A stretch of DNA of 35,919 nucleotides from Rhodospirillaceae bacterium (GTDB taxonomy: Bacteria > Pseudomonadota > Alphaproteobacteria > Thalassobaculales > Thalassobaculaceae). Numbering within the stretch: the stretch's first letter is position 1; each line of letters opens with the position of its first letter. Shown in pieces: positions 8,152 through 18,855 of this stretch. A program made the translations under genes and the position numbers. The notes under the pieces are model-generated. The model was given only the letters and a program-made list of their open reading frames with translations, was not told where the DNA came from and searched no databases. Location: NCBI GenBank assembly GCA_018699735.1, contig JABIRP010000379.1, positions 1-35,919 of the forward strand, given 5' to 3'.

Positions 8152-9390
8152 TTGCTAGAGCTTAGGATTGACCGGATGGATCAAGGCACAACGGCCCTGC
8201 CACTCTTAGACCTGATGATCGGAGTGGTCATCATTTTGGCCATCCTGTTCAAATCGGCATTCGAGCGCTTGGGCCTCCCGGCATTGGCCGGTTTTATTGC
8301 GCTGGGCGTGTTGTTACGAGTTGCCGACGATACATTCGGTCTAATTTCCGAAGACGGCATGGTCGTGCTGGAGTTTCTCGGGCGCATCGGCGTCTTCGCC
8401 ATTCTGTTCCGTGTCGGACTTGAGAGTAATCTGTCCGGGCTGTTGAGCAAGTTGCCGCGCGCGGCGCCGATCTGGGTATCGAATATCGCGCTGAGCGGCC
8501 TCCCGGCATACTGGGTTTCTTACCAATGGATCGGCCTGCCGCTGATACCCAGTCTCTTCGTGGCGATCGCTCTCACGGCGACAAGCATTGCGGTTACAGC
8601 CGAAATCTGGAGCGAGGCCGGCGCGATTTCCTCGGCCAATGGCGAGTTGATGATGGATGTCGCGGAACTGGACGACATCAGTGCTGTCGCCCTGCTCGCA
8701 TTCCTGCTGGCCTTGGTCCCAGTGCTGACGGGACAGTCCGATGGGACGATTTCGAAAGCCTTGTTTGACGCCGGAACAACCTTCCTGATCAAGACGTTCG
8801 CTTTCGGCGCCTTCTGCCTCTTGCTGGCACGATACGGCGAGCGACATATTTCCCGCTTCATCAAGTCGACGAAACCGCCTTATGGAATTCTGTTCGTTGC
8901 CGGCATCGGCATCGTCGTCGCGGCCCTCGCGGCCCAACTCGGGCTTTCACTTGCAGTCGGGGCGCTGTTCGCCGGCCTGATCTTCTGTCGTGACCCCGAG
9001 GTCGTCAGCATGGAGGCCTCGTTCGAGCCGGTGCACGACTTTTTCATGCCGTTTTTCTTCGTGGTCGTCGGCTTAAGCGTCGATCCGATGTCCCTCACCT
9101 CCGCAACACTGCTCGGGGGAATTCTGCTGATCGTCGCCGTTCTTGGAAAGATCATCGGGGCCGGCGTGCCCGCATATTTCGCGGCTGGATGGTCGGGAGC
9201 CGTTCTAATTGGTATCAGCATGGTGCCCCGGGCCGAGATTGCTCTTGTCGTCGCACGCCAAGGCAAAGAACTGGGCGAATGGGCTCTGCCGCCAGAGGTT
9301 TATTCGGCGCTGGTATTGATCGTCGCTGTGACGTGTACCGTATCGCCCGCGGTGCTTCGTGGGCTGTTGCGGCAGTGGCCGCAGAAGTAG
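8152..9390 (+). CDS. Cation:proton antiporter (CPA2/Kef-like), membrane domain only
   Basis: About 12 hydrophobic helices; ALTATSIAVTAEIWSEAGAISSANGELMMDVAELDDISAVALLAFLLA carries the CPA-type acidic pair. Start is TTG at 8152 or ATG at 8176. No C-terminal RCK domain. Confidence 0.85.
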   Translation: MLELRIDRMDQGTTALPLLDLMIGVVIILAILFKSAFERLGLPALAGFIALGVLLRVADDTFGLISEDGMVVLEFLGRIGVFAILFRVGLESNLSGLLSKLPRAAPIWVSNIALSGLPAYWVSYQWIGLPLIPSLFVAIALTATSIAVTAEIWSEAGAISSANGELMMDVAELDDISAVALLAFLLALVPVLTGQSDGTISKALFDAGTTFLIKTFAFGAFCLLLARYGERHISRFIKSTKPPYGILFVAGIGIVVAALAAQLGLSLAVGALFAGLIFCRDPEVVSMEASFEPVHDFFMPFFFVVVGLSVDPMSLTSATLLGGILLIVAVLGKIIGAGVPAYFAAGWSGAVLIGISMVPRAEIALVVARQGKELGEWALPPEVYSALVLIVAVTCTVSPAVLRGLLRQWPQK

Positions 9391-10003: not shown

Positions 10004-11059
10004 TCAAGCCAAGAAGTAGGGCATGAAGGCCGTCGAGGATGCCTCAACGAAGCTGCGGCCGTTTCTAGCGATGAAGAAGGCGGCGATGCCTTCGCGCTCG
10101 GCAAGTTCCATACCCGCTTCGAGCCCCATGACCATCAAAGCCGTGGACAGCCCGTCCGCCAACATAGTCGTGGTTGCGATCACCGTCACCGAAGCCAAAC
10201 CATGTTCCACCGGCCGCGCAGTTCTCGGGTCGATGATGTGCGAGTAGTAGCGCCCCTCTTCTTCGAAAAAGAGACGATAGTCACCTGACGTGGCGAGCCC
10301 GTGCCGATCCAAGTGGACGACCCGCTGAGCGACCGATGGTACGCCGGAAGGATGTTCGATGCCGACACGCCAGCCGCCACCCCTTGGGCTCCAACCTCGG
10401 CCCCTAAGTTCGCCGCCGATCTCAACCAGATAATGACCGATTCCAATTTGTTCCAAGTGCTCGGCAATCTTGTCGACGGCAAAACCCTTGGCGATCCCAG
10501 ACAAATCGAGTTGAACAGCCTCATTCCGTTTAGTGAGCCGCGGTGGAGCACTCAAGGCGCCAACCTTGTTAAATCCAATTTTCGCCGACGCGTCTTCGAT
10601 GAGCGACTTGGAGGGAACCTGCTGTCCGTCGGCGCCAGAGCCAAATCCCCAAAGGTCGACGACTGGGCCGACAGTCGGATCGAAAGCGCCGCCAGTTAGA
10701 GCCGCAACCCGAAGCGCCGCTTCGGCGACGGTCGCGGTATCGCTGGACACACGAACCTCGGATCGGGCCGGTCCCGCGTTGAAGTGCGAAAGTTCGGATC
10801 CGGGTCGATAGGTCGACATCTGATCGTTGATTGCCTCAAGAATGTCCGCCAAGTCGGCGGTCAACCGATTTACGTCGACGCCGGCCGGTTTGTCGGTGAT
10901 CTTGATTTGATAGGTCGTACCCATCGTGCGACCGGAAAGTTGTGACAAGCCCCGTCCACGGTCACCACTATCGCAGGCCATGAGACTTAGGAACGGTGTT
11001 GCCAGAGCCAGGGAGCCAACCCCTTTAACTAGGCTCCTTCGGGTTAGGTCGTGTGTCAT
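10004..11059 (-). CDS. apbE: FAD:protein FMN transferase (NqrB/NqrC flavinylation)
   Basis: Likely ATG at 11059 (MTHDLTRRSLVKGVGSLALATPFLSLMACDSG, lipoprotein/Tat-like leader). LSGRTMGTTYQIKI, DLSGIAKGFAVDKIAEHLE, YYSHIIDPRTARPVEHGLASVTVIATTTMLADGLSTALMVMG. Confidence 0.95.
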   Translation of the reverse strand: MTHDLTRRSLVKGVGSLALATPFLSLMACDSGDRGRGLSQLSGRTMGTTYQIKITDKPAGVDVNRLTADLADILEAINDQMSTYRPGSELSHFNAGPARSEVRVSSDTATVAEAALRVAALTGGAFDPTVGPVVDLWGFGSGADGQQVPSKSLIEDASAKIGFNKVGALSAPPRLTKRNEAVQLDLSGIAKGFAVDKIAEHLEQIGIGHYLVEIGGELRGRGWSPRGGGWRVGIEHPSGVPSVAQRVVHLDRHGLATSGDYRLFFEEEGRYYSHIIDPRTARPVEHGLASVTVIATTTMLADGLSTALMVMGLEAGMELAEREGIAAFFIARNGRSFVEASSTAFMPYFLA

Positions 11060-11061
11060 GG

Positions 11062-12285
11062 CTAACCTCCGAAATCGTCGAAGAAGATGGCGTCGGGATC
11101 GACACCGAGATTGTCGAGCATGCGCCGTACCGCCCGGATCATCATGGGCGGGCCGCAAAGATAGTATTCGCAGTCCTCGGGCGATGGATGTTGCTTGAGG
11201 TATTGGTTCGCCAGGACATCATGAACAAATCCTGTCTGCCCGGTCCAAACGCCGTCCGGGATTGGCTCGGACAGAGCGACCGTCCAATTGAAATTGTCGA
11301 ACGTCACAGCCAACTGATCGAACTCGTCCTGGTATAGGATCTCCCGCCTGTTCCGAGCACCGTACCAGAACGATATCTGGCGTTCTGTCTTGCAGCGCTT
11401 GAGTTGATCGAGAATGAGCGACCGTAAAGGCGCCATGCCAACACCGCCGCCAACGAACACCATCTCGGCATTGGTATTGGTCGCCGAGAAATGACCATAG
11501 GGGCCAGAAACCAAGACCTCGTCCCCTGGCTTGCGGCTGAATAGATATGAAGAAACGACACCTGGCAGTGCGTCATCTGGAGCGTCAGGCGGAGGAATTG
11601 CGGCGCGAACGTTTAGTGTGATCGCATCCCTCTCTTCTGGAGGATTGGCCATGGAATAGGCGCGGGTCGTTTGACTGGGCGTCCCGGTCTCCAGCCGCCG
11701 CAGGTCGAACCTGTCCCAATCATCGCGAAAGGCGGCATCAATATCGATCTCCGAGTACTTAATCCTATAGGCGGGGCAAGTAGCCTGGATGTATCCACCA
11801 GCTCGGAATTCGATTAGCTCACCTTTGGGAAGGTCGAGCACCAACTCCTTGATCAGACTGGCGATTTGGGTGTTGGAACGAACCCGGCAGGCCCATTGCT
11901 TCACACCGAACACATCCTCGGGCACTTCGACCGACATCTCGTCGCGCAGCTTGACCTGACAGGCGAGACGCATGCCACGGCGTATCTCGCGTCTGGTGAG
12001 GCGCCCGGTTTCGGTCGGCAAGGCTGTTCCACCGCCGTTGGTCACCCGGACCCGACATTGGCCGCAAGTTCCGCTGCCGCCGCAAGCAGCCGGCAATCGA
12101 ATTTCCGCCTCGCCAAGCACGTCCAGTAATTTGCGGCCAACGGCAGCCGTGAGCGACTTTCCGTCATTGATCGTGACTTCGACAGTTCCCCCGGCGACAA
12201 AAAGCGAGCGGGCGGTCAGGATCGCCAAAACCAGCAACAACACGATGCAGGTGAACAGGACAATGCCGAGCCAAATTTCAGTCAT
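11062..12285 (-). CDS. nqrF: Na+-translocating NADH:quinone reductase subunit F
   Basis: ATG at 12285 ([11 protein letters not shown]). 2Fe-2S motif [16 protein letters not shown]...RLACQ; FAD motif [13 protein letters not shown] motif [24 protein letters not shown]. Confidence 0.97.
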
Positions 12286-12896
12286 CCGACAGTGATCCCC
12301 TTGAAGCCGAGGAAACCAAGGGAGATCAAACCGACCACCACGAAGGCTATTCCGGTACCTTGGAGCCCTTTCGGGATGTCGCTGTATTTCAGCTTCTCTC
12401 GAATTCCCGCCAGCAGGAGGATCGCGAGCAGCCAACCGAACCCCGTTCCCAAGCCGTAAGTGACACTTTCTGGCAGGTCGTATTTCCGGTCGACCATGAA
12501 CAAAGACCCACCGAGGATGGCGCAATTGACCGTGACCAACGGCAGGTAAATGCCAAGTCTCTGGTGCATGGCCGGCAAATAACGCTCGATCACCATCTCC
12601 ACAATTTGCACCATCGCGGCGATCACACCGATGAAGCTCAGGAGGGCCAGAAAGCTCAAATCGACGTCCGGCAACCCGGCCCAAGCCAGCGCACCTTCTG
12701 CCAGCAAATAGCCGTTGATCAGATTGTTGACCGGGACGGTTATCGTCTGAACCACCAGAACCGCCAAACCGAGGCCGAATGCCGTTTCCATCCGCCGCGA
12801 GACAGCCAAGAACATGCACATACCAAGGAAGAACGAGAGGGCCAGATTCTCGATGAAGGCGGCCTGCACGAATATGCTCGCATATCCCGTCATCAT
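12282..12896 (-). CDS. nqrE: Na+-translocating NADH:quinone reductase subunit E
   Basis: 204 aa membrane protein. [18 protein letters not shown] and [16 protein letters not shown] carry the two intramembrane Fe-S cysteines. Confidence 0.97.
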
Positions 12897-13552
12897 GGAC
12901 CTCCAGCTTTGGTCACTTCGAACTCGTCTTCCTCCACCTGTTCGGCGCGCGCGGAGCGGATCGCCCAGATCATGAATCCGATAATGAAGAACGCGCTCGG
13001 CGGCAGCAGCATTAAGGCGGCAGGTTGATACCAGCCCCCGGCGGCAGTCGTCGGCAGAATCACAATTCCCAACAAAGTGCCGGCGCCGAAGATCTCGCGG
13101 ACCGTGCCAACCGCAATCAGTATCCAGGCATAACCCAGCCCATTGCCGAGCCCGTCCAGGATGCTGGCGACAACGCCATTTCGAATGGCAAACGCTTCCG
13201 CCCGCCCGAGAATGATACAGTTGGTGACGATGAGGCCGACGAAGACCGAGAGCTGCCTGGAAAGCGAATACGCATATGCCTTCAGCACCTGGTCAACGAC
13301 GATGACCAGGCTGGCGATTATGGTGATCTGGATGATCAGTCGCACGCTGCGCGGCAAGTGCATACGGATCGAACTGATTGCCGCGTTTGATACCGTGATC
13401 ACGGCAATCACCGCCAAGGACATGATCAAGGCAGTGGCCAGGGTCTTGGTCACCGCCAAGGCCGAGCAGACACCCAGCACTTGCAAGGTAATCGGATTGT
13501 CGCCGACCAGCGGCGTGATGAGCGTCCGCAATTTTCCTGTACCCGGGTTCAC
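12893..13552 (-). CDS. nqrD: Na+-translocating NADH:quinone reductase subunit D
   Basis: ORF opens at 13606; GTG at 13552 ([35 protein letters not shown]) fits better because it avoids overlap with nqr[16 protein letters not shown] holds the second conserved Cys. Confidence 0.93.
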
Positions 13553-13556
13553 CGCC

Positions 13557-14390
13557 TCACCTCGCTCGAAGTTTGCGCAGGAATGGACCAAAGCCATGAT
13601 CGCCAAGCCAGTAGCGAAGCAGGTTTGTCACGCCATGGCTGGTCCAGGTAGCACCGGTTAAACCATCCACCTGATACGCAGCATCGGGACTAGCCGGGTC
13701 GACCGGTCCGGTTGCGATCCCAAGGCGTTGGGTCCCGGTCTGATCCCATATTCTTTTGCCATACCATTGCCGGCGCCAGGACGGGGCGTCGATTAATGCG
13801 CCCAACCCTGGTGTTTCCGTATGCTCATAAAAAGTAAGACCGACCACGGTCTTCAGGTCCGCACTCACACCAAGATAACCGTAGAGCATCGAGCCATATC
13901 CTTTGCCGCGCACCGGCAGCACCACGACCTCTGTCTTGCCCGCCCGCACGAGGAGATAAACGACAGCGAATTTGGCTCGACGACCGACCCATGCGACATC
14001 CTCTTTCGGGTCGACCATCACGCTTGTCTCGGGATCCTTGGCCGCAGCGCGCTGATCGAAGGACGCGGGGTCCATTCGCGGCACATACTCACCACTCTCC
14101 AGGTCGACAACCTTGGCTTCAAGCGTCGCCTCGCCCCTGCTAAACGCCGCAGCGAAATCCGGGACCCGGGAAACGATGTCGACGATATGGCGCTGACGCT
14201 CAGCCTCACGGTTGGCGATCTGGCGGGGTTTGAGGATGACCGCCGAGGCGGTCACCAACGCCGAGCAAACCAAGGCCACGATCAAGGTGATCGCAAGTGT
14301 CTTGATCGGTCGATCGTTCGGCATATCCAGGAACTGCCGGAATACTGACGCCGGGCGATCTCCCACATTGACAGGCTCATTAGTCGACAT
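13557..14390 (-). CDS. nqrC: Na+-translocating NADH:quinone reductase subunit C
   Basis: 277 aa. N-terminal TM; covalent FMN attachment motif [31 protein letters not shown]-like segment ([19 protein letters not shown]). Confidence 0.96.
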
Positions 14391-15477
14391 GACGTCTGGC
14401 CCTCCGCCTGATGTTGGCCCGAACCACCAAACTGTCGATGAGCGGTGCCGCGATGTTACCCATCAGGATCGCGAACATAACGCCGTCCGGATGATGGCCA
14501 TTGGCGACGCGAAACAGCACCACCAAGGCGCCAATCAGGAACCCGTAAATCCAACGTCCGGTATCGGTCATCGCCGAGGTCGTCTGATCGGTGGCCAGGA
14601 ACACGGCCCCAAACGCAAAGCTCCCGAGCGTCAGATGCCAGTGAAACGACAGCGAGAAATAGGCATCGCCCGGCAGATTGTTGGACAATATCGACGTCAG
14701 CACCATGCCGAGCAGCACACCGGTGATGACCCGTGCCGACGCTGTTCTGGTGTAAAGCAGGACGCCGGCCCCAAGAATGCACGCGACCGTCGACGTGGTC
14801 CCGAATGCGCCGGGCACGAGGCCGAGAAAGCTCAACTCCCAAGGTGTTGCCACCCAGGCCAGAGCCTCCGGCCTTTGCAGGGCTCCCAGGCTGAGGTAGG
14901 TCGGCTCCGAGAACGCATCCACCATGACCCACGAGGATTCGATCGTCATTTGCGCCGGATAAGTGACATAGAGAAACGCCACGCCGACCAACACGGGATT
15001 GAGAACATTCTTTCCAATACCGCCGAAAATCTCTCGGCCGACAACCAACCCAAACGAAATCCCGAGCGCCGCCTGCCACAACGGTAGCGCCGGCGGTAAA
15101 ACCAGCGCGAACAAAAGAACCAACACCGCCAATCCCTGACCGGGCGGGCGATGTCGAGCTGTCGCAAATGCCCACGACCAGAAGGCTCCGGTGACGCCAA
15201 CCGTGATCAGGATCGGCAGAAAATAGAGTGCGCCGTGAATGACAGCGGCAACAAAACTTAAGGGATCCAAGCCCACGCCGAGTGCTTGGATGACATCCCC
15301 GCGCCACCCCGGCGCAACCTCCAATTTCAAGCGCTCCAGAGTCAGATTAGCCTGCAGACCTGTGTTGTAGAGCGCCATGGCGACGCAAGGGGCCAACGCG
15401 ATTAGCTGCCATCGCAGCGCAGCCGCCAGATTGAAAGCGTCACGGATATGCGGGGCTGGCCTCGTAACCACTCTCAT
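14380..15477 (-). CDS. nqrB: Na+-translocating NADH:quinone reductase subunit B
   Basis: 365 aa polytopic. FMN-site-like segment GAFGTTSTVACILGAG; VVGREIFGGIGKNVLNPVLVG; LATDQTTSAMTDTGRWIYG; NGHHPDGVMFAILMGN. Alternative GTG start at 15471. Confidence 0.95.
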   Translation of the reverse strand: MRVVTRPAPHIRDAFNLAAALRWQLIALAPCVAMALYNTGLQANLTLERLKLEVAPGWRGDVIQALGVGLDPLSFVAAVIHGALYFLPILITVGVTGAFWSWAFATARHRPPGQGLAVLVLLFALVLPPALPLWQAALGISFGLVVGREIFGGIGKNVLNPVLVGVAFLYVTYPAQMTIESSWVMVDAFSEPTYLSLGALQRPEALAWVATPWELSFLGLVPGAFGTTSTVACILGAGVLLYTRTASARVITGVLLGMVLTSILSNNLPGDAYFSLSFHWHLTLGSFAFGAVFLATDQTTSAMTDTGRWIYGFLIGALVVLFRVANGHHPDGVMFAILMGNIAAPLIDSLVVRANIRRRARRHVD

Positions 15478-16844
15478 CCCTCCTTCTCGATCATGTCGAG
15501 TACGGAGCGAAGCATCGGGCCATAGTCGAGCTTGCTCGGGCAGATCGTCGTGCAGAGTGCTAAATCCTCCTCGTCAAGTTCGAGACAACCGAGCGCTTCC
15601 GCCGCCTCCAGGTCTCCGACGAGAAGTGCACGAAGTAATTGGGTGGGTAAAATGTCGAGCGGCATCACGCGCTCAAACCCGCCGAACGGGACCATCGCCG
15701 TTGCCGGTCTATTTGCTGAACTCACGAGTGGAAATTTTTTCCGGCCCCAGGGGCGAGATCCGAGGCCCCGATAGATCGAGAACCAATTGGGCGGACTGCT
15801 ACCGGTTGCACTATCCGCTGTGGCATCCCTTTCACCGATCACGGATACCTGGTTGTCGTAGCGGCCGAGATAGGCGCTCGCGCCGTCCGCGTGGCGTCCT
15901 GACATTACAGAGCCTGAAATCACGCGACACGCACCTTCGATCATAGCGTCTCGGGTCAAATCAGTGATGCTGGCCCCCATACGCGTGCGCAGGACACGCG
16001 GCTCCCGGATCATTGGGCCGGCCAGCGAAACCAGGCGTTCGCAGAGGAGCCTACCGGTCGTGAACAAATGCCCGATCGATATGACGTCCTGATAACCTAT
16101 GTGCCAAACCATCCGAGCCGCCGACACTGGATCGAGGTGATGGATATGCGTGCCGACCAAACCCGCCGGATGGGGTCCGGAGAACTTCCTTACAGACACC
16201 TCTGGTACCGACGGAATGGGCAGGTTCACACTCGGTCCCTGGCATACGAAGACGTTTCGCTCGGCCAAGTGAGAGATTACCGCAAGTCCGTTGCGAAACT
16301 CGTCCGGACGGGTTTCGATGATCTGCATCGGATCGGGCGCCAGAGGATTGGTGTCCATGGCGGTCACGAAAATTGAGCGGACAGTGCTCTCAGGATCCGC
16401 CGCTCTGCCAAACGGCCTAGTTCGCAGCGATGGCCAGAGACCGGATTCCAGCAAGGTCTCTATCACTTGGTCTCGCCTGAGCGAGCCGAGTTCGGCCGCT
16501 GGCCAGGACGAAAAATCCCTCTCCTCATCGCCATCCAAACGAATGACGACAGATTTCAACGATCTTCGGGGCCCCCAGACGATTTGCGAGACCACGCCGC
16601 TACCGGGAGACGTAAACTGGACCGATGGCCGCTTTCGATCCTCGAACAAGGTTTGGCCGAGCTTTACCCGGTCACCTTCTTCGACCCGCATCGCCGGTCT
16701 CAGCCCGCCATAGTCCTCTCCCGACAAAGCCACCGACGAGATCCCAGGGCCAGCGCCAATACTGCCCGCCGGATCACCGGCGATGGGTAGATCAAGGCCG
16801 GCTTCAATTCTGGTTATTGTCGTTTCAGCCTGTCGGCCCGGCAT
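15474..16844 (-). CDS. nqrA: Na+-translocating NADH:quinone reductase subunit A
   Basis: 456 aa. GLDLPIAGDPAG, LRPAMRVEEGDRVKLGQTLFEDRKRPSVQFTSPGSGVV, DLEAAEALGCLELDEEDLALCTTICPSKLDYGPMLRSVLDMIEKEG. Confidence 0.96.
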   Translation of the reverse strand: MPGRQAETTITRIEAGLDLPIAGDPAGSIGAGPGISSVALSGEDYGGLRPAMRVEEGDRVKLGQTLFEDRKRPSVQFTSPGSGVVSQIVWGPRRSLKSVVIRLDGDEERDFSSWPAAELGSLRRDQVIETLLESGLWPSLRTRPFGRAADPESTVRSIFVTAMDTNPLAPDPMQIIETRPDEFRNGLAVISHLAERNVFVCQGPSVNLPIPSVPEVSVRKFSGPHPAGLVGTHIHHLDPVSAARMVWHIGYQDVISIGHLFTTGRLLCERLVSLAGPMIREPRVLRTRMGASITDLTRDAMIEGACRVISGSVMSGRHADGASAYLGRYDNQVSVIGERDATADSATGSSPPNWFSIYRGLGSRPWGRKKFPLVSSANRPATAMVPFGGFERVMPLDILPTQLLRALLVGDLEAAEALGCLELDEEDLALCTTICPSKLDYGPMLRSVLDMIEKEG

Positions 16845-16923
16845 TCGTCTGACCCTCTCCGTGGCACTGATGGAAAGACACTAATCAAACCTTGATAGAG
16901 TCGTCTCTGACCTAGATCAGCCG

Positions 16924-16963
16924 TAAACTGAGACGGCCTGAACATCAAGAACGGCTCAGTTTA
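16924..16963. repeat. Inverted repeat overlapping the protease stop, upstream of nqrA
   Basis: taaactgag (16924-16932) and ctcagttta (16955-16963) are exact reverse complements, with inner cg/cg pairing after one mismatch. Confidence 0.75.
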
Positions 16964-18533
16964 AATCAGCTTTCTCCAGCAGAGACCGGACCTTCGCAGC
17001 TGGCACCCCAAGATTGGATCCACCAAATTCCGGCAGAATGGCGGTATTGACCGCGACTACATTTCCGTCGACATCCAAGACCGGACCGCCGCTTCCGCCG
17101 ACAGTCGTCTCCGCATCGTAGACAATTGTCGCCGAGGTCGTCTGGCTGACGATTCCCCGACTAGCGAGCGGCACGATATGGCCGCTCTTAGCCAACCGCT
17201 CGGCCACGCCCCAGAAATTGATCCCCCCGGCAGTCTGGAGTGCCTCTATGAACGCGTCACCGGCCTGCGCCAACAAGGACTTGAGCCCGGTTGGGTACCC
17301 CATGACAATCACCTCCGCACCCGGGGCCGGCGGTTCCACAGCAAGGCTCAGCCCGACCATAGACTCTGTGGCGTCCTTGCGACGCAACAACGCGAGATCC
17401 GCGTTATCGCTGGTTCGCAGAAGCTCCAACGTATCCGGTTCGTCGCGCCCCGGTGCGTAGGCAATGAACTTTGTCAGCACAGGCACGAGGCCCATACTGG
17501 CCATGGCCGGGACGTTCGCGTCATCTTCCCAAGGCTGCGCCAAATGCCGACTGGTGACCAGAACCCCGCCATCGCCGACCGCAAACCCCGTCCCGGTGAA
17601 CTGGCGACTGGCAACGGGCCCCTCTCCTTCCAGCGCCAGCAGCGGTTGGCCCACCGGCGAGATTAGCGGTCTCCCCTCATCATCCAATACATGGCGCAGC
17701 ATTCGGCCGGTCGACACCTCTTGGAACCCGTAAGCCCCCTGCAGAAAGGCGATCGATGGCACTGATGCTGCGATCACGCGCGCTGTAGCGGCCGACCGTT
17801 GTTCAAGAACAGCCAACCTGTCCGCCGCCGAAGACAGCCGGCTCCCGACCTCGGTTCGCAAGGCCCGCAAGTCAGCCGGCGTGATTGCCTCGTTTCGCGT
17901 CCGTGTCAAAGCGCCCGAGAAACTTTCGATCCGCGACGCACCGGCTTCAATTCGCTGCTCCAACAAGGCGCTCAGGCGATACTGCTGATATATCAAGGCT
18001 ATGATTACGGCCATAGCGATGACCGTGCCGACGCGGAACAGCACCGTGGTTTCAAGCGCCAAGCCTCGGAAAAACTCAAGGGTTGCTCGAACCAACCGGT
18101 CACCAATCGGGCGTCGACTGACCCGAAGATAGACAACGCCGTCGCGTAACAGGTTCGTCACCAATTTCCGGGCTGGCTCTCTTCCCTGGAAAATTCGGTA
18201 ACGGCATATCGGCCCTGCCTCGCCGAATTCAATCACGTCTTGTTGCTTAAGCACCTGGGATGTCGTTCGGGCACCGTTGACCCATATGGGATTTTCATCT
18301 GACGCAACGATTTCATAGCTATCCCCAACACGCCGAAGACGCGCGATCAGAGCCTCATGAGGCTCTGATGTGCCGGCATGCGAGACGTCGAGGAAACGAT
18401 CCTGGCGCAAAGACACATTCAGGCTCGTCCCTCCGAGCCAGGTAACCGTTCCCCGCGACGGACCGGTCAAGTGTTCAAGAACAATTACCCCACCTGACAA
18501 TTCATCGTCACGGTCATGGTTCATTGCGATCAT
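16956..18533 (-). CDS. FHA-domain / transmembrane / trypsin-like serine protease fusion
   Basis: ORF opens at 18689; ATG at 18533 (MIAMNHDRDDELSG) is plausible. FHA-like N-terminus, TM segment (ETTVLFRVGTVIAMAVIIALIYQQY), then a protease domain with apparent triad: LVTSRHLAQPW (His), DNADLALLRRKD (Asp), GGSGGPVLDVDGNVVAVN (Ser). Confidence 0.85.
   Translation of the reverse strand: MIAMNHDRDDELSGGVIVLEHLTGPSRGTVTWLGGTSLNVSLRQDRFLDVSHAGTSEPHEALIARLRRVGDSYEIVASDENPIWVNGARTTSQVLKQQDVIEFGEAGPICRYRIFQGREPARKLVTNLLRDGVVYLRVSRRPIGDRLVRATLEFFRGLALETTVLFRVGTVIAMAVIIALIYQQYRLSALLEQRIEAGASRIESFSGALTRTRNEAITPADLRALRTEVGSRLSSAADRLAVLEQRSAATARVIAASVPSIAFLQGAYGFQEVSTGRMLRHVLDDEGRPLISPVGQPLLALEGEGPVASRQFTGTGFAVGDGGVLVTSRHLAQPWEDDANVPAMASMGLVPVLTKFIAYAPGRDEPDTLELLRTSDNADLALLRRKDATESMVGLSLAVEPPAPGAEVIVMGYPTGLKSLLAQAGDAFIEALQTAGGINFWGVAERLAKSGHIVPLASRGIVSQTTSATIVYDAETTVGGSGGPVLDVDGNVVAVNTAILPEFGGSNLGVPAAKVRSLLEKADLN
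18346..18369. repeat. 24-bp perfect palindrome inside the FHA/protease ORF
   Basis: atcagagcctca|tgaggctctgat: the two 12-nt halves are exact reverse complements. Confidence 0.9.
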
Positions 18534-18855
18534 GGCGAAGTTTCCTTCGACGCATCCACCGTCAAATACTTCGAGATCCCTGAGGCTTTGCCTTAGCGTA
18601 GATCCCAGACAGTTCCGGCTTGATGGTAAGCGGCCTGGAGTCGATAGCACAAGCGACGGTTTTAGGTCCTGAGAGGCCTCAGGCCCCACAGGCGCTTGTG
18701 TTCGGCTTGATCTCGCTCATTCCATCGGTGCTTGAAAGGGTGTCTCCTGGTTCAAATCACGTCCGATGCATCGCCGTCCACTTGGTCAGGCTCTGACAGG
18801 CCAATGATGATGCAGGACGCAGGTACCGCTCGGCATAGTGCCAGGGAGTGAGCAA

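Follow-up and report, generated by a model that had tools for sequence, protein, structure and literature searches.

The gene at positions 16956-18533 of the window, the whole 35,919-nucleotide stretch of DNA that was analysed, lies directly beside an nqr cluster. The question it raises is whether its product, described in an earlier note as a transmembrane fusion of an FHA domain and a protease, serves the respiratory Na+ pump, relays a phosphothreonine signal, or acts alone. The product is probably an HtrA-type periplasmic endopeptidase that is tethered to the membrane and acts alone, with a degenerate cytoplasmic FHA domain for which a phosphorylation-independent contact is the most likely use. 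The reading frame is real and is located on the minus strand, given that stop codons interrupt the plus-strand reading, and it encodes 525 amino acids. The start is placed at the ATG at 18533, with an AAGGA element about 9 nucleotides upstream; the mechanical open reading frame reaches further, to a GTG at 18689. The contig might in principle have been a contaminant, but its sarcosine oxidase gene has relatives of 69-70% identity in two genomes of the same family, so it plausibly belongs to its assigned genome.

The trypsin/HtrA-like domain comprises residues 261-521 (16971..17753, minus strand), with a catalytic triad of His330 (17544-17546), Asp379 (17397-17399) and Ser481 (17091-17093), all encoded on the minus strand. 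Pfam Trypsin_2 (PF13365) matches residues 314-495 with an E value of 4e-15 and is matched by all 41 family members. The triad, which had been described as apparently intact, is invariant in 41 of 41 aligned sequences, and a GGSGG motif is nearly invariant among them. A structure model of the full-length protein (pLDDT 80, pTM 0.58) was matched by Foldseek to the protease domains of HtrA1, DegP, Deg1 and MarP (Rv3671c). NCBIfam models of the Do/HhoA type also match all 41 members. Because the scores fall well short of all curated HtrA cut-offs (27 bits against 416 for TIGR02037, and 25.4 against 250 bits for the MarP model NF033740), the protease is not an orthologue of DegP, DegQ, DegS or MarP. 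Domain searches gave no PDZ match, and the protein stops 44 residues past Ser481, so that there is no room for such a domain, in agreement with the earlier description.

A single hydrophobic helix at residues 163-181 (17991..18047, minus strand) bears out the one transmembrane segment that had been proposed. The positive-inside charge bias around this helix is weak in the window protein, with two Lys or Arg residues on either side, and the N-in/C-out orientation is predicted from the type of protein. The helix is followed by a helical linker at residues 182-260 (17754..17990, minus strand), for which long helices are modelled at 164-213 and 219-243, with helices continuing to about residue 260. 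The long helices agree with the coiled-coil-like linker of the earlier note; the heptad pattern is weak, and a coiled coil is plausible. Residues D131, T162, F166 and R167 around the start of the transmembrane helix, and L209, D221, L222, R239, L243 and E244 in the linker, are nearly invariant, suggesting that this connection is under selection.

The N-terminal domain adopts a predicted FHA fold of 11 strands, on the presumed cytoplasmic side, at residues 16-115 (18189..18488, minus strand). The window protein alone scores 16.3 bits with the FHA model PF00498, under the Pfam gathering cut-off of 20.7, but the same model is matched by 25 of 41 family members at E <= 0.05, with a best E value of 1.9e-7. 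A profile built from 40 N-terminal domains finds the FHA domains of GarA, OdhI and Rv1747 in the PDB at E values of 9e-4 and weaker, with those of GarA and OdhI as the top matches. A model of residues 1-125 (pLDDT 86, pTM 0.77, 11 strands) likewise places FHA structures at the head of the Foldseek list, with GarA the best. In short, the FHA-like domain proposed earlier is upheld as a fold by profile, model and relatives, and falls short of the Pfam cut-off when this one protein is scored by itself. In one gammaproteobacterial copy (L077:10039-11463), the N-terminal FHA region is read in a different frame from that of close relatives, a candidate frameshift or assembly error.

The relatives of the protein define an unnamed family of membrane-tethered proteases, assembled from known parts and distributed widely but patchily. 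A search of genome contigs with the single sequence gave no matches, and a search with an alignment of five sequences gave 46 loci; in the scan of GTDB species genomes with this alignment, nearly all of the 46 loci were true relatives. About 47 distinct relatives are conserved over their full length at 25-59% identity, mostly 37-59%. The carriers include Rhodospirillales-like and Hyphomicrobiales MAGs, Ruegeria, Antarcticimicrobium, Sedimentitalea, Gammaproteobacteria, two Acidobacteriota and one Nitrospira, the last with a distant relative of 25% identity. No orthologue was found in the 35 other genomes searched from the same GTDB family, several of which are incomplete; the matches there, short, C-terminal and of the DegP type over about 40-210 residues, were rejected as orthologues. 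A sample of 385 genomes from the class contains four others with an orthologue, at 54-58% identity over the full length. In a tree, the window protein clusters with sequences from Rhodospirillales and Hyphomicrobiales MAGs (96/88 support). Such patchiness may reflect loss or horizontal transfer. One copy resides on an 811-kb Ruegeria plasmid, where it is annotated only as "serine protease", and a literature search for bacterial FHA-protease fusions found no relevant paper.

The neighbours of the protease gene vary between genomes, such that the commonest Pfam families occur in only 4 of 108 neighbour proteins, and no recurrent neighbour was found across the loci of the relatives. Two large shared neighbour clusters (1 and 3) were discounted, since they resemble antisense readings of the protease gene itself. 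A recurring upstream reading frame of about 170 amino acids was also set aside, given that the proteins differ between lineages and are unrelated, being Hsp20-like in Ruegeria and of other sequence elsewhere. In Ruegeria (L103:5128-7524), an Hsp20-family gene lies just before the protease gene, and a universal stress protein is encoded nearby. This context is lineage-specific and fits a stress role, which might be proposed for the protein by analogy.

In the window, the protease gene is followed by nqrA (15474..16844) and by nqrB, nqrC, nqrD, nqrE and nqrF (11062..15477), all on the minus strand, and these genes with apbE form a complete cluster, as confirmed by Pfam and NCBIfam. The protease gene is co-directional with nqrA, which starts at 16844, across a gap of 111 bp (16845..16955, minus strand), just as had been noted, and no promoter or terminator was predicted in this gap on that strand. 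A 9-bp inverted repeat (16955-16963 and 16924-16932) overlaps the protease stop codon; it has no T run, and the folding energy of the 16924-16963 region is ordinary (z -1.07). The window NqrA is only 43-46% identical to the NqrA of family relatives, and apbE is downstream and co-directional (cluster 10004-16844), as opposed to upstream and divergent in those relatives; the window cluster may be of separate origin. NqrB (14380-15477) is 365 amino acids long, with its most upstream start overlapping the nqrA stop codon. Alignment to the NCBIfam NqrB models begins only at about position 38-40, and the window NqrB seems to be missing an N-terminal stretch of about 38 residues that is found in typical NqrB. 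A gene of the Na+/H+ exchanger family at 8152-9390 and the nqr-apbE cluster are convergent, with about 0.6 kb between the exchanger gene and apbE.

An accessory protease of the Na+-NQR complex, co-transcribed with nqr and active in assembly, quality control or regulation of the pump, would account for the common strand, the short gap and the lack of a predicted terminator within it. The earlier note took the pairing with the pump to be the new element of the locus and proposed a neighbourhood survey for its recurrence beside nqrA. The window nqrA-F and apbE were compared by tblastn with 49 loci, 47 of them distinct. For about 44, the sequence continues for 1 kb or more 3' of the protease gene, the side occupied by nqrA in the window; flanks were at most 10 kb and were often shortened by contig ends. 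Within these flanks, nqrA, B, C, D and E were near the protease gene in none of the approximately 47 distinct other loci. Matches to nqrF in five Ruegeria neighbourhoods were rejected: they cover only the NAD-binding half at about 30% identity, and the corresponding gene in Ruegeria sp. THAF33 is annotated as a ferredoxin reductase. An nqrA above the model cut-off is present in 16 of the 43 other carrier genomes, away from the neighbourhood of the protease gene. Another seven have only matches below that cut-off, one being a full-length nqrA interrupted by a stop or frameshift and others probably divergent relatives. In the remaining 20, among them the 99%-complete G092, nothing matches nqrA at E <= 0.001. 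The class background for nqrA is 8 of 372; the carriers exceed it chiefly through Ruegeria, and their excess does not count as independent evidence. Within the same family, nqrA occurs in 8 of 36 genomes, that of the window included; at the six other family nqr loci that were read, the protease gene is absent and nqrA is preceded upstream by a divergent apbE. The association does not recur, an outcome that the earlier note had itself named as refuting its proposal. The adjacency is probably a local event without functional meaning, with nqrA a chance neighbour; an accessory role is very improbable for this protein and is largely refuted as the function of the family. The family is thereby freed of a misleading tie to the respiratory Na+ pump.

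The other function proposed earlier, in which the FHA domain reads a phosphothreonine signal and passes it to periplasmic proteolysis, draws on the FHA fold itself, and canonical FHA domains bind phosphothreonine. At the positions of the GR, SxxH and S/T-x-N-G motifs, as aligned to GarA, the proteobacterial members have other residues; His-Ala is kept at the SxxH position in the distant Nitrospira member alone. No Pkinase match for a Hanks-type Ser/Thr kinase exceeds the cut-off in the MAG of the window (about 91% complete) or in G092, as holds for 15 of the 37 carrier genomes tested, with MAG gaps and non-Hanks kinases possible. Given the absent contact motifs and this kinase result, the mechanism is very improbable. 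The FHA region of the Nitrospira member (L086:745-2439, 25% identity) is more canonical and may represent the ancestral state. The domain likely still has a job, since a set of residues particular to it is strongly conserved (G24, R27, G28, W84, N86, L95, D99, E102, G107, P108 and R111), and it probably serves a phospho-independent protein contact or oligomerisation. An inside-out (or outside-in) switch, in which the FHA-like domain is bound by an unphosphorylated partner in the cytoplasm, and this binding gates the periplasmic protease through the transmembrane helix and linker, is a tentative alternative. It would make sense of these conserved residues and of the selection on the membrane connection, but no recurrent partner gene adjoins the protease gene. 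The wider proposal, that throughout a conserved family a phosphorylation-independent cytoplasmic FHA domain controls an HtrA-type periplasmic protease across the inner membrane, is doubtful; we know of no description of cytoplasmic control of envelope proteolysis by such a route. If the domain does gate the protease, this would be an uncommon case of cytoplasm-to-periplasm control of proteolysis. A catalytically dead anchor that retains only the protease fold is extremely improbable, given the conservation of the triad and of the GGSGG motif.

The favoured account, that of a stand-alone envelope protease, preserves the layout described in the earlier note (FHA fold, transmembrane helix, helical linker and PDZ-less protease with its triad) and dispenses with the phosphothreonine input and the nqr pairing. 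The protein would span the inner membrane once, with the degenerate FHA domain on the cytoplasmic side and the transmembrane helix and helical linker leading to a PDZ-less serine endopeptidase with a complete triad in the periplasm. It would act alone in proteolysis, perhaps for envelope quality control, like other membrane-tethered enzymes of the HtrA type, and would not belong to Na+-NQR. For the FHA-like domain, the most likely mode of action is phosphorylation-independent contact, whether for oligomerisation, for localisation or with a partner protein.

Among known FHA proteins, GarA and OdhI are the closest by profile and fold, but the window domain is without their phosphothreonine-binding motifs. 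EssC of type VII secretion differs from the window protein in being an ATPase with tandem FHA domains and no protease. Its N-terminal FHA domains are likewise devoid of the residues for phosphothreonine recognition and so provide a precedent (PMC4925161). The HtrA/Deg proteases (MEROPS S1C; DegP, DegQ, DegS, HtrA1 and Deg1) share the trypsin-like fold and the His-Asp-Ser triad, are periplasmic in bacteria and, in DegS-type enzymes, have a membrane anchor, as predicted for the window protein. The window protein differs from them in the absence of a PDZ domain and the presence of an FHA domain on the presumed cytoplasmic side. MarP (Rv3671c) of mycobacteria, matched by both structure and profile, is likewise a membrane-tethered protease of the periplasm, chymotrypsin-like and without a PDZ domain. 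MarP has a multi-pass transmembrane anchor, whereas the window protein has one transmembrane helix and an FHA domain.
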